From a virus, in IMG/VR virus record IMGVR_UViG_3300042894_000586, positions 1-35,633 of that record: a stretch of DNA of 35,633 bases. The stretch is one strand, 5' to 3'. The notes beneath the pieces are model-generated. The model was not told the origin of the DNA and did no database searches. It saw only the letters and a program-made list of their open reading frames with translations. Below are positions 1-35,633 of this stretch, in pieces. Made by a program: the position numbers and the translations under genes. Numbering within the stretch: the first letter of the stretch is position 1; each line of letters begins with the position of its first letter.

Positions 1-127
1 ATAGACGGTTTAAGTATTCACACCATAGAGGGTAATACGAACGATACGGGAAGTAGAGAGGGGTATGAGGTGTGTAAAAGAATTAGAAAAATGTCGCAGA
101 TTAAAGGATACATTTTAGTATCTTTGC
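1..127. repeat. Terminal direct repeat (left copy), circular-assembly overlap
   Basis: Bases 1-127 are identical to 35507-35633 with no mismatch. A length of exactly 127 matches a common maximum k-mer of short-read assemblers, so this is most simply the overlap left when a circular or circularly permuted genome is written as a line. A real terminal repeat cannot be excluded from sequence alone. Confidence 0.9.
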
Positions 128-4848: not shown

Positions 4849-5140
4849 AAAAATAGGTATGTTTTTCAACACGATCAAAGAATCGGGACAAGAACTGGAA
4901 GCTTCAAAAGAAAAAACATTGAAGCAAGACCAAATCATTCTAAACGCTTTTAAGCCAAACGGAATGAATAGTGCATGGTTGATGTATAACGCTAATGTAT
5001 TGCCTCACGGAACGCCTATAACCTCTTATCGCAGAAGTTTTAACACTCTACTTGAGCAAGGTAAGATTGAAAGAGTTGGCCAAAGAATCGGCAACCTGGA
5101 CAAAAAAGAATTTACTTATAAATTAAATTTGGAAAGTTAA
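4832..5140 (+). CDS. Putative winged-helix protein, 102 aa
   Basis: The start at ATG 4832 is preferred over an alternative upstream codon at 4784 because it gives a modest 17-base overlap. After a basic N-terminal helix, the segment from QDQIILNAFKPNG to LLEQGKIERVG and FTYKL reads like a winged helix: two helices, a recognition helix (SYRRSFNTLLEQGKI) and a beta wing. It is probably a DNA-binding regulator or replication accessory. Promoter P3 lies over its last codons. Confidence 0.6.
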   Translation: MRTTVKKIGMFFNTIKESGQELEASKEKTLKQDQIILNAFKPNGMNSAWLMYNANVLPHGTPITSYRRSFNTLLEQGKIERVGQRIGNLDKKEFTYKLNLES

Positions 5141-5158
5141 ATATTTAGTTTATATTTG
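5128..5158 (+). promoter_or_regulatory. Promoter P3, full -33/-7 match
   Basis: TTTG at 5128-5131, a 19-base spacer, and TATATTTG at 5151-5158 give a perfect match to the Bacteroidota promoter pattern. It lies across the end of the previous gene and directs transcription into the hairpin region at 5164-5257. It shares AATTTGG, TTATATTTG and a downstream AGTnTTATnA with promoter P5 at 18523. Confidence 0.8.
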
Positions 5159-5163
5159 CAGTG

Positions 5164-5257
5164 TTATGAAGGGTAGAAGACTTCAATTAAATAACAAAGA
5201 TATTAGCCACGTTTACAAGTTGCACTTCTACTGCGCTTGTGAATTGTGGCTTTTTTT
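5164..5257 (+). ncRNA. Short structured RNA or attenuated leader from P3, about 95 nt
   Basis: A perfect promoter is followed by about 95 bases with two hairpins and a T run. Hairpin 1: TGAAG (5167-5171) with CTTCA (5181-5185). Hairpin 2: AGCCAC/GTGGCT, ACAAG/CTTGT and GCA/TGC stacked with small internal loops (5205-5251), followed by TTTTTTT. The outer helix pairs without mismatch. The product could be a free small RNA, or a leader whose read-through controls the replication genes starting at 5269. A 45-codon ORF starting at 5166 crosses the structure but resembles no protein I know. Confidence 0.6.
5205..5257 (+). terminator. Terminator/attenuator hairpin before the replication operon
   Basis: AGCCAC (5205-5210) pairs with GTGGCT (5246-5251), ACAAG (5215-5219) with CTTGT (5236-5240) and GCA (5222-5224) with TGC (5232-5234). 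T5251-T5257 follow directly. It lies between promoter P3 and the ATG at 5269, so the downstream genes need read-through, antitermination or another promoter. Confidence 0.75.
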
Positions 5258-9906: not shown

Positions 9907-9938
9907 TTTGTTACTTTCAAATAAAAAATTTAATATTG
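9907..9938 (+). promoter_or_regulatory. Promoter P4
   Basis: TTTG at 9907-9910, a 20-base spacer, and TAATATTG at 9931-9938, the same -7 variant as P1. The ATG at 9948 is nine bases further, so the leader is very short. It fits a start of transcription for the sigma-like gene and the sugar/methyl cassette. Confidence 0.7.
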
Positions 9939-17919: not shown

Positions 17920-18522
17920 ATGAAAATAAGTGATGAAATATTAGACAAGTGTGCCGATGTTCTTTTAGAATGGGGCAACGCAAACGCAAATGAGATGCGA
18001 AGACTCCTGAGAGAAAGACTTAAGCATAAGAAGACTGAAAGTAATTTGGCTCAGAGTATAGACCTACAAGACCCGATAATCAAAGGTGGTGTAGTTTCAA
18101 TGGCTATTGACTTAAACGATTACTGGATGTACATCGACTTAGGAGTTAAAGGACTTAGGAATAAGTCAGGCCCTAAGACGGGTTCGATACCTACAAAGAC
18201 TTACACTAATAAAGACTTTCCCAATGGATTCAGTTTTAGAAACATAGGCACACCGCCTCAAATGATAAATAGCCTACAAGACTTCATCGCAAGAAAAGGA
18301 CTTGAAGCAAGGGTAGGCAATGAGTCGACAAGTCAAGTAATACAAACGAGTTTCCAAATGGCAGAGTCAATGGCTTTAGCTATCAAACTAAAGGGTATTG
18401 ATGGCACACGCTTCTATTCAGACACATTTAACGATGAAAGTTACAACGAACTAACTAACAAACTAAGTTTGATTATCGGTCAAGATGTTGAGTTTAGATT
18501 AATCACCGAATTTAAAAAATAA
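17920..18522 (+). CDS. Putative head-tail connector/tail-completion protein (HK97 gp10-like)
   Basis: The N-terminal part has a helix with LLRERLKHKKTESNLAQSI followed by a beta region with YWMYIDLGVKGLRN; this order resembles HK97 gp10-type neck proteins (residues '...NLRKSI ... YA..vdfGt'). The C-terminal half is helical (MAESMALAIKLKGI). Assignment is based on pattern and position only. It is followed by its stop and, in the same bases, by promoter P5. Confidence 0.45.
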   Translation: MKISDEILDKCADVLLEWGNANANEMRRLLRERLKHKKTESNLAQSIDLQDPIIKGGVVSMAIDLNDYWMYIDLGVKGLRNKSGPKTGSIPTKTYTNKDFPNGFSFRNIGTPPQMINSLQDFIARKGLEARVGNESTSQVIQTSFQMAESMALAIKLKGIDGTRFYSDTFNDESYNELTNKLSLIIGQDVEFRLITEFKK

Positions 18523-18553
18523 TTTGGTTTTGTTGAAAATAGTATTATATTTG
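18523..18553 (+). promoter_or_regulatory. Promoter P5, full -33/-7 match
   Basis: TTTG at 18523-18526, a 19-base spacer and TATATTTG at 18546-18553. It starts one base after the previous stop codon. It shares AATTTGG, TTATATTTG and downstream AGTnTTATnA with P3. It faces the hairpin unit at 18555-18627 in the gap 18523-18665. Confidence 0.8.
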
Positions 18554-18554
18554 A

Positions 18555-18627
18555 AGTCTTATAATTGTTCATATAAGATTGAAAAGGAGAATAGGTCAGA
18601 CTTGCAAGGTGCTGACCTATTTTTTTA
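18555..18627 (+). ncRNA. Candidate small RNA, about 70 nt, with two hairpins
   Basis: Right after P5 a 9-bp stem forms between AGTCTTATA (18555-18563) and TATAAGATT (18572-18580), with one G-U pair and an 8-base loop. A short linker GAAAAGGAGA follows, then a perfect 9-bp terminator stem (18591-18620) and a T run. No open reading frame of note lies inside. Promoter, two hairpins and terminator in about 100 bases, wholly between two genes, describe a self-contained small RNA. The single-stranded AAGGAG between stems is striking in a genome that does not use Shine-Dalgarno sites. Confidence 0.65.
18591..18626 (+). terminator. Rho-independent terminator of the P5 unit
   Basis: ATAGGTCAG (18591-18599) and CTGACCTAT (18612-18620) are exact complements around a 12-base loop; TTTTTT follows at 18621-18626. 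The loop contains the palindrome CTTGCAAG. Confidence 0.85.
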
Positions 18628-18649
18628 TGTCGGTATTTTTGCCATTAAA

Positions 18650-18660
18650 TAATATAATAT
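18650..18660 (+). promoter_or_regulatory. ATATAATATA box before tail gene
   Basis: The box containing TATAAT (18653-18658) lies seven bases before the ATG at 18666. The same ten bases occur in front of genes 26472 and 29202. Here I see no TTGTAC at 16-17 bases upstream, so it may be a weaker promoter or an A/T-rich translation-start element. Confidence 0.4.
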
Positions 18661-18665
18661 AGATA

Positions 18666-19895
18666 ATGGCAGTTACATTCATTCAACAACCTGACTTATT
18701 CGTGAGTGGTTTCGACCCTATCATCTATTTAGCTTCGAGTTCACAAACTACACAAACGAACTTTAGATACCGTATCCAAGTCTTAGACGCTTCAGCTAAT
18801 GTAATCACGGAACTTAGAAAACCTGCTTACTATGCTGATGGTACTGTTGACTTAGATGCTCATAGAATCATTGAGAACTATTTGTCATACGATATGACTA
18901 ATCTAATTGCAGGTTCAGTAGGGTTTAAGACTGGAGTCAATGTCTACAAAAAGTTCAAGATAAACATACGGGAGGAATACGGAGCGGTTGTAAGTGGTTA
19001 TGCCAGTGCCGAGAGTACTTACATTTACGCTATTAATTCGGCTCAGACTTACCTAAAACAAATTAACAGCCCTATTGATGACTTGGTTTATAAAGGCATC
19101 CCGACAACCTTTGGGACATTCTTAACTAATCAACCATCGACCATTGATATAAGAGTCGGGGATAGTTACGAGCTTGGATTCTTAAACTATGCGACAAACG
19201 GGACTGACCATATGAGGGTTAAGACCTACGATGAAAGTGGAACGCTACTTAAAAGTTCAACCTTTGCCAATGCTTGGGTCGCTGACACAACGGACAAGGA
19301 ACACTTCTTAAGTGTCTTGGTAGGCCCTGCAAACTTAAACTCATGGACTGTTGCAAGTGGTTCGGCTCAACCTATGATTGCGGATTCAGTAGCAAAGTAT
19401 GAAATCAGTTTTGAAAACAACACCCCGACAATAGTTTCAAATACTCTGACTTTTAAAATAGATAGGGAGTGTACACGGGATGGGAACTACAATCGTTTGT
19501 TTTGGCTTAATCCTTTAGGTCGAATGGATGCGTTTAACTTCACCCAAATAGCTGATGACAATATAACCGTACAAAGTAGTAATTATAATCGTTTACAAGG
19601 CACAAGGACAAGTTCAGGGATTACATTCAATACTTACTCACACGAAAGGAGTAACTTCTTTAATTCGTCTAAACAAAAATACACCCTTAACAGTGGTTAT
19701 GTGAATAGCGAAACAAGTCTTTGGCTTAAGGAGTTGGTTCAATCGCCTTTGATTTATATGATAATCGGAGGGCAGTTTGTAGCGGTCAACATTTTAACAA
19801 CTGAATACCAGGCTAAGAGTACAATCAAAGAAAAACTATTTAATGTGACTATGGAAGTGGAATTGAGTGCAGACACTAAAAGACAAAGACTATAA
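18666..19895 (+). CDS. Tail protein, 409 aa (distal-tail-like position)
   Basis: A beta-rich protein without membrane segments or signal. The start (VTFIQQPDLFVSGFDPIIYLASS) and the NPLGRMDAF ... HERSNFFNSSKQKYTLNSG region are of a type seen in tail genes of phages of Bacteroidota. It directly precedes and overlaps (TAATG) the large tail protein gene, which suggests a baseplate or distal tail part. The precise role is inferred from position. Confidence 0.6.
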   Translation: MAVTFIQQPDLFVSGFDPIIYLASSSQTTQTNFRYRIQVLDASANVITELRKPAYYADGTVDLDAHRIIENYLSYDMTNLIAGSVGFKTGVNVYKKFKINIREEYGAVVSGYASAESTYIYAINSAQTYLKQINSPIDDLVYKGIPTTFGTFLTNQPSTIDIRVGDSYELGFLNYATNGTDHMRVKTYDESGTLLKSSTFANAWVADTTDKEHFLSVLVGPANLNSWTVASGSAQPMIADSVAKYEISFENNTPTIVSNTLTFKIDRECTRDGNYNRLFWLNPLGRMDAFNFTQIADDNITVQSSNYNRLQGTRTSSGITFNTYSHERSNFFNSSKQKYTLNSGYVNSETSLWLKELVQSPLIYMIIGGQFVAVNILTTEYQAKSTIKEKLFNVTMEVELSADTKRQRL

Positions 19896-26437: not shown

Positions 26438-26466
26438 TGTACATAGTTTAATTATAAATATAATAT
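26438..26466 (+). promoter_or_regulatory. Candidate late promoter L1 (TTGTAC-N17-TATAAT)
   Basis: TTGTAC at 26438-26443, 17 bases, TATAAT at 26461-26466 inside ATATAATATA, five bases before the ATG at 26472. The whole stretch aligns well with L2 at 29167. It is not of the TAnnTTTG type, so it may be used by an altered polymerase, for example with the sigma-like protein encoded at 10153. Confidence 0.55.
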
Positions 26467-26471
26467 AATCA

Positions 26472-29120: not shown

Positions 29121-29139
29121 TAAATTATAATTAAAGAAA

Positions 29140-29168
29140 GGGAGGCTTAACGGCTTCCCTTTTTTTTT
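29140..29168 (+). terminator. Rho-independent terminator after the capsid operon
   Basis: GGGAGGC (29140-29146) pairs with GCTTCCC (29153-29159), with one G-U pair and a 6-base loop, followed by nine T (29160-29168). It ends the transcript of protease, capsid and tail-tube genes. Confidence 0.85.
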
Positions 29169-29194
29169 GTACTTAAGTTACTTTATCATATAAT
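29167..29194 (+). promoter_or_regulatory. Candidate late promoter L2 (TTGTAC-N16-TATAAT)
   Basis: TTGTAC at 29167-29172 begins in the terminator's T run; 16 bases later comes TATAAT at 29189-29194 within ATATAATATA, seven bases before the ATG at 29202. It aligns with L1 over about 36 bases including TTGTACnTA and ATATAATATAA. A terminator followed at once by this element supports a real promoter. Confidence 0.55.
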
Positions 29195-29201
29195 ATAAGT
29201 A

Positions 29202-29594
29202 ATGATTCGACTTAATCTTGGAAGTAACGTTGTGGTATTGACTTTGTCTGAAAAGATAACTATATCCTCGCCTAACTTCTTGTTTGAATTTATTAACAAT
29301 CAAACGCAAATAAAGTACTATTGTATCTCAAGTGATTTAAGCCTATATCCTGAGAGATATAATAAGTTTACAATAGTTGTAAAGACAACTACACCGAGTC
29401 CATTAGTAGGCGAAATTCAGATACCTTTAGGCGATGAATACACCTACAACGTTTACGAACAAGTAAGTTCAACTAATTTAGTGCCTACTGGTTTAAATGT
29501 AGTTGAAAATGGACTAATGACCTATGATAAAGTAATAACCTCAAGAGTAGAGCAAGAATCTACCTTAACAAGAAAAGCATATGAGCCAAACTAA
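29202..29594 (+). CDS. Hypothetical structural protein, 130 aa
   Basis: A beta-rich protein. LNLGSNVVVLTLSEK and SSDLSLYPERYNKFTI resemble a small family found beside portal genes of phages of Bacteroidota. The C-terminus is linked to the portal by a 14-base overlap. It is possibly a virion component; the role is not known. Confidence 0.6.
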   Translation: MIRLNLGSNVVVLTLSEKITISSPNFLFEFINNQTQIKYYCISSDLSLYPERYNKFTIVVKTTTPSPLVGEIQIPLGDEYTYNVYEQVSSTNLVPTGLNVVENGLMTYDKVITSRVEQESTLTRKAYEPN

Positions 29595-35207: not shown

Positions 35208-35633
35208 AACACATAGAAATAGCAATCTCACAAATAGGAGTCCAAGAAGTCCCAAAGGGCAGTAATTGGGGTGCAGACGTTAAAAAGTATCTCAACAGTG
35301 TCGGGATCAATTTCCCCGCTTCATGGTGCATGGCGTTTGTTTATTGGTGTTGCAAAGAGGCAGGAGTAAACCTTTTTAAAACGGGCGGAGTTTTGGCTCA
35401 ATGGAATAAAACACCAAAAGAAAAGAAGTCTTTAACACCTGTAGTAGGCTCTATTTTTATAATGGACTACGGCAAAGGTTTGGGACATACTGGCTTTGTT
35501 GAAAGAATAGACGGTTTAAGTATTCACACCATAGAGGGTAATACGAACGATACGGGAAGTAGAGAGGGGTATGAGGTGTGTAAAAGAATTAGAAAAATGT
35601 CGCAGATTAAAGGATACATTTTAGTATCTTTGC
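35204..35633 (+). CDS. CHAP-type endolysin, N-terminal part (continues at base 128)
   Basis: The gene starts at ATG 35204 and runs off the end; on the circle it continues to the TAA at 130-132, giving 144 residues. The CHAP/NlpC-like active site is visible: ASWCMAFVYWCCKEAG with catalytic C42, LGHTGFVERIDG with H95, and HTIEGNTN with E111/N113. Such enzymes cut peptide bonds in peptidoglycan. There is no signal peptide, so export depends on the holin-like proteins encoded just upstream. There is no separate cell-wall-binding domain, as is common for phages of Gram-negative hosts. The candidate spanin is about 1 kb further on the circle. Confidence 0.88.
   Translation, partial: MKHIEIAISQIGVQEVPKGSNWGADVKKYLNSVGINFPASWCMAFVYWCCKEAGVNLFKTGGVLAQWNKTPKEKKSLTPVVGSIFIMDYGKGLGHTGFVERIDGLSIHTIEGNTNDTGSREGYEVCKRIRKMSQIKGYILVSL
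35507..35633. repeat. Terminal direct repeat (right copy)
   Basis: Identical to bases 1-127. It lies inside the endolysin gene; one copy should be removed before counting genes or length. See the left copy for interpretation. Confidence 0.9.

Follow-up and report, generated by a model that had tools for sequence, protein, structure and literature searches.

Between two genes of a phage genome, here called A and B, lies a stretch of about 105 bases, positions 18523 to 18627 of the window (our term for the whole 35,633-nt, or 35.6-kb, virus record that was analyzed), into which no ORF fits. The question raised by this locus is whether it is a gene in its own right, with a small RNA as its product. 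The first-pass annotation had taken it for a self-contained small RNA unit set between a connector gene and a tail operon. Our analysis confirms the parts that were described, and leaves the small RNA reading plausible, if unproven; a comparison of related phages adds a history of insertion and exchange that bears on what the unit may be.

The Phage and the Genes Flanking the Unit

An identical direct repeat of 127 bp is found at both ends of the window (1–127 and 35507–35633), and the record is therefore probably a complete, circularly assembled genome. The terminase that it encodes is nearest to those of Flavobacterium phages, and the nearest relatives of its primase belong to a Tenacibaculum phage, to Flavobacterium phages, and to one phage recorded from sewage. 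The host is probably to be sought among Flavobacterium-like bacteria. At the DNA level, the 18523–18627 region has no match among the GenBank phages searched.

Gene A (17920–18522, 200 aa) and gene B (18666–19895, 409 aa) lie on the plus strand, as does the unit between them. The labels "connector" and "tail operon" could not be upheld for these neighbors, neither of which has a PHROG match or anything above cut-off in Pfam; a portal protein and a protein with a tape-measure-like match are encoded further downstream. Relatives of gene B, looked for in a genome contig collection as a possible host homologue, were not found there. Gene B is preceded in all relatives by a conserved leader (GTATTTTT...TAATATAATATAG; 18633–18665, plus strand).

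The window contains the sequence TATAATATA at just three places (18653–18661, 26459–26467, and 29189–29197). Each copy closely precedes, by a few bases, the ATG of a structural-region gene (18666, 26472, and 29202) and has a GTA(C/T)(A/T)T box 14–20 nt upstream. Versions of this element precede the counterpart of the gene at 18666 in all relatives, and it may act in the phage group as a late promoter or a start element. Within 29121–29201, directly before the TATAATATA element of the gene at 29202, there is a further sequence that resembles a terminator (GGGAGGCTTAACGGCTTCCC and a long run of T).

Promoter, Hairpin, and Terminator

The promoter reported earlier, TTTG-N19-TATATTTG, is present on the plus strand and conforms to the Bacteroidetes consensus. 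Its −33 box, TTTG (18523–18526), directly follows the stop codon of gene A, and after 19 nt comes the −7 box TATATTTG (18546–18553; consensus TAnnTTTG), which in the relatives reads TATCTTTG. Since the TAnnTTTG box of F. psychrophilum sits at −12 to −5 (PMC9723704), we place the predicted transcription start at 18556–18558, at the base of a hairpin (18555–18580, plus strand). This hairpin, too, is as described and where a 5′ end would be expected, with arms at 18555–18563 and 18572–18580 that form nine pairs, one of them G-U, around an 8-nt loop. It is followed by the hexamer AAGGAG (18584–18589, plus strand), the A-tract of an intrinsic terminator (18590–18626, plus strand). The terminator is perfect and has its T run, as the annotation had it, with a stem one pair longer than the nine stated: arms of 10 bp (18590–18599 and 18612–18621) enclose a 12-nt loop and lead into T7 (18620–18626). 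Promoter and terminator together predict a non-coding RNA of about 70 nt (18556–18626, plus strand), and neither an ORF of note nor a hidden small protein was found when 18523–18627 was searched for them. By its sequence, then, this is a short non-coding stretch bounded by a promoter and an intrinsic terminator, as expected of a small RNA gene.

The predicted fold of 88 nt is unusually stable (z = −4.7; none of 200 shuffles was equally stable). The window contains four strict TTTG-N19-21-TANNTTTG matches, this promoter among them, against a shuffle mean of 0.97; the one at 5128, which lies upstream of an ORF at 5166, repeats both the spacing and the −7 octamer. The combination of promoter, hairpin, and terminator is found once in the window and in none of the 60 dinucleotide-shuffled versions of the full window, a figure that flatters the unit because the criteria were fixed after it had been seen. 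An Rfam search of the window gave no match above the gathering score.

Promoter-like sites of the form TTTG-N19/20-TANN(T/A)TTG also stand in pre-gene gaps at 220–250, 5128–5158, and 9907–9938, and TAATATTG may be a variant of the −7 box that the window phage uses. A second candidate promoter-terminator unit, at about 119–195, was set aside; judged by eye, its TATCTTTG falls in the last codons of an ORF that crosses the contig ends.

The A–B Junction in Related Phages

Scans with genes A and B yielded 34 related phage contigs in which the A–B junction is readable. In 20 of the 34 the two genes are only 33–34 nt apart, with no insert. Five (L004, L007, L008, L009, and L031) have a 71-aa ORF followed by a matching −7 box, hairpin, and terminator; five others (L002, L003, L005, L006, and L025) have small ORFs of other kinds, which end in a terminator unlike that of the unit; and the remaining contigs carry a 29-aa ORF (two) or a non-coding stretch of about 130 nt (two). 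Because empty junctions, junctions with the same unit, and junctions with other inserts all occur, the site can be recognized as an insertion hot spot that holds cargo, and the unit as accessory. These comparisons make it a moron-type cassette, present in the window as a copy that has no coding gene, and not a core regulator.

The junction also bears marks of exchange. The window's gene A shares 99.7% DNA identity with its counterpart in L010, whose junction is empty, and the 5′ part of gene B is closer to L004 (89.8%) than to L010 (85.2%), so that recombination has taken place around the unit. L004 and L007 have the window's TAATTTG at the gene A stop, and in those two phages it is spaced correctly for a cargo promoter, TTTG-N20-TAATATTG. 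The −33 position of the unit itself, in the relatives, reads TATG at N20 and not TTTG (by eye).

The 71-aa ORF ahead of the unit (3088–3303 in L004, with a matching ORF in L007) encodes an acidic protein that resembles no known family above noise. Its coding sequence differs between L004 and L007 at 18 of 216 positions, with one of nine four-fold sites changed; 14 of the 18 differences lie in codons in which the amino acid changes and four in synonymous codons, suggesting that the cargo protein evolves fast. In L006 (4466–5000) and L025 (4470–5000) the cargo at this junction is a different one. Its ORF is roughly 104 aa long and is accompanied by a promoter-like TTG/TATCTTTG and by the terminator GGTAGGCAGAAATGTCTACC, which leads into a T run.

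Constraint on the Unit

The unit occurs in three distinct sequences in all, and it has evolved slowly. Over the stretch that begins with the −7 box and closes with the 5′ arm of the terminator, L004 and L007 differ at 0 of 54 positions, whereas 13 of the 36 four-fold sites that gene B has in its first 300 nt are changed (Fisher 1e-6); for the window and L004 the corresponding figures are 5 of 54 and 19 of 37 four-fold sites of gene B (Fisher 1e-5). Of the five differences, one falls at a position that TAnnTTTG leaves free, one in the hairpin loop, one in a stem pair whose partners still pair (U-A/U-G), one in the linker, and one in the A-tract. The −7 box and both stems are spared, an outcome that has a probability of 0.02–0.06 if five changes are placed at random. 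The terminator stem is invariant, and its loop varies in length and sequence among the relatives. Covariation can be followed through three sequences only: all pairs are kept, one change is one-sided (the U-A/U-G pair), and no two-sided compensatory change is seen.

Wherever the unit occurs the −7 box and both stems, the 5′ hairpin included, are intact, which holds for all three distinct sequences; the −33 TTTG is unmatched, and the 20 contigs with an empty junction lack the unit altogether. Similarity to the relatives can be detected from the −7 box onward, and upstream of it there is just the TAATTTG at the gene A stop. A remnant of the cargo ORF had been suspected by eye in the stretch that precedes the window's −7 box; alignment did not bear this out (p = 0.84). 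Slow evolution, the retention of −7 box and stems, and a similarity that starts at the −7 box together favor a functional module that begins at its promoter. The small number of silent changes in the cargo coding sequence suggests in addition that the cassette may have been transferred recently, and the slow evolution of the unit could in part reflect this.

Distribution and Possible Targets

A covariance model of the unit, run against 36 sources and 12 related records, has strong matches only in these phages, and a search of a viral collection for the hairpin pattern returned the same five phages along with unrelated chance matches. Within the collections covered, the unit is thus confined to this phage group. 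Several kinds of weaker match were rejected. Those to the covariance model lie on the reverse strand of the palindromic terminator or in unrelated terminators with that palindrome; hits to the hairpin pattern in bacterial genomes lack the combination with −7 box and terminator and look like chance; and terminator-pattern matches in other viruses, three of which were inspected, have only the AGGTCAG/CTGACCT palindrome in common.

A scan for pairing between the accessible part of the RNA and phage start regions gave best p values of 0.05 (window) and 0.34 (L004), and the top-ranking target was not the same for the two; no conserved target was found among those start regions.

Discussion

We think it probable that the locus is a non-coding, accessory (moron-type) transcription unit, residing at the A–B insertion hot spot of a group of Flavobacterium-like phages and producing an untranslated RNA of about 70 nt. 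Host RNA polymerase of the sigma-A type would start at about 18556–18558 and stop at the terminator near 18626, and the product would consist of the 5′ hairpin and the terminator hairpin. The window would represent the version of the cassette that has no 71-aa gene, one whose consensus promoter is completed by the TTTG next to the A stop codon; the terminator would also end transcription arriving from gene A, just ahead of the leader of gene B. Since the unit of the window has a consensus promoter and no companion gene, one would naturally predict a transcript of about 70 nt, and on the strength of promoter and terminator we infer that the unit is transcribed. That the RNA does more than end transcription, acting as a stable and possibly base-pairing small RNA, we put forward tentatively. 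The broader idea, that a small regulatory RNA of phages moves between related phages as a non-coding moron of its own, by itself or together with a gene for a small protein, we hold with similar reserve. The claim of a self-contained small RNA unit is thus supported by the anatomy, the slow evolution, and the preservation of −7 box and stems, and is weakened in that the role proposed for AAGGAG fails, most relatives lack the unit, and it lies elsewhere at the 3′ side of a small ORF.

This last observation invites a different account. Since the unit is found just downstream of a small ORF in every other carrier, there may be nothing here beyond the 3′ end of that gene and its terminator, and in those phages the RNA could be a 3′ UTR. 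The unit of the window would then be a relic of the 71-aa cargo gene, left behind when the ORF was lost, with any RNA a by-product and the promoter match a consequence of the cargo's −33 TTTG having come to lie 19 nt from a TAnnTTTG-like sequence. The position directly 3′ of the cargo ORF in all five other carriers agrees with this account, as do the shared TAATTTG at the A stop, which suits the cargo promoter of those phages, and the unmatched −33 box of the unit there. The account leaves it unexplained why no trace of an ORF is detected upstream of the window's −7 box, and why the −7 box and the 5′ hairpin have been conserved although a terminator needs neither. We regard it as unlikely on balance, while taking it seriously.

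That the unit serves as an insulator, blocking transcription that arrives from the packaging side and leaving gene B to its own late start element, seems to us improbable. A strong terminator does stand directly upstream of the conserved B leader, and other inserts at the site likewise end in a terminator; against this, the junction has no terminator in the 20 relatives with no insert, and insulation would call for neither a promoter nor a 5′ hairpin. Finally, the suggestion that an exposed AAGGAG mimics or binds the anti-Shine-Dalgarno sequence, so that the RNA would capture host ribosomes as a decoy, has in its favor that the hexamer is present in the window, and we consider it very improbable because the hexamer is not conserved (AAAGAG in every relative), is predicted to be paired with the U-tract (probability 0.81–0.99 for its last four bases) rather than exposed, and would face Flavobacterium ribosomes that sequester their anti-Shine-Dalgarno, the only clear user of which, rpsU, requires an extended match (PMC9976891).

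Returning to the reading of an accessory transcription unit, several known systems offer comparisons. The OOP RNA of phage lambda (pO-oop-tO), 77 nt long, has its own promoter and its own intrinsic terminator (PMC12197685, PMC5869508) and so resembles the unit, for which both are predicted, as a short non-coding phage transcript. A relation in sequence was sought through Rfam, with no match. OOP is antisense to cII, whereas our unit lies on the same strand as its neighbors and overlaps no gene, and unlike OOP it is accessory, not core. Closer to the likely host are the Rfp RNAs of Flavobacterium psychrophilum, which are independent non-coding transcripts, short and structured, with TAnnTTTG promoters (PMC9723704). 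They share with the unit the promoter type and a short, structured RNA, which for the unit is predicted; they differ in being chromosomal, several of them conserved in the genus, while the unit belongs to phages. Small RNAs derived from 3′ UTRs provide a third parallel, in that the putative unit RNA of the relatives would likewise come from the 3′ end of a protein gene, with one terminator serving both; the unit of the window, in contrast, has no coding gene.

A phage moron has been described as a gene that is flanked by a promoter and a terminator and inserted between two genes (PMC4378225). Like a moron, the unit carries what its bases indicate to be a promoter and a terminator of its own, is placed between genes that are adjacent in related phages (the 33–34-nt junctions), and differs among close relatives. 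Morons normally hold a coding region; the unit of the window does not, and relatives of the L004/L007 type have the 71-aa ORF.

We found no description of a small regulatory RNA moron in this phage group, and small RNAs of Bacteroidetes phages seem hardly to have been described at all; a full-text literature search on small RNAs of Flavobacterium phages brought up a single paper, which deals with snow communities. The locus offers a natural comparison, since near relatives are available with cargo gene and unit and with neither, and the window has the unit alone. Should the unit be transcribed, it would establish that phages can trade cassettes without a coding gene as morons; if it is not, it would show that the turnover of cargo leaves behind promoter-terminator stubs that resemble small RNA genes.
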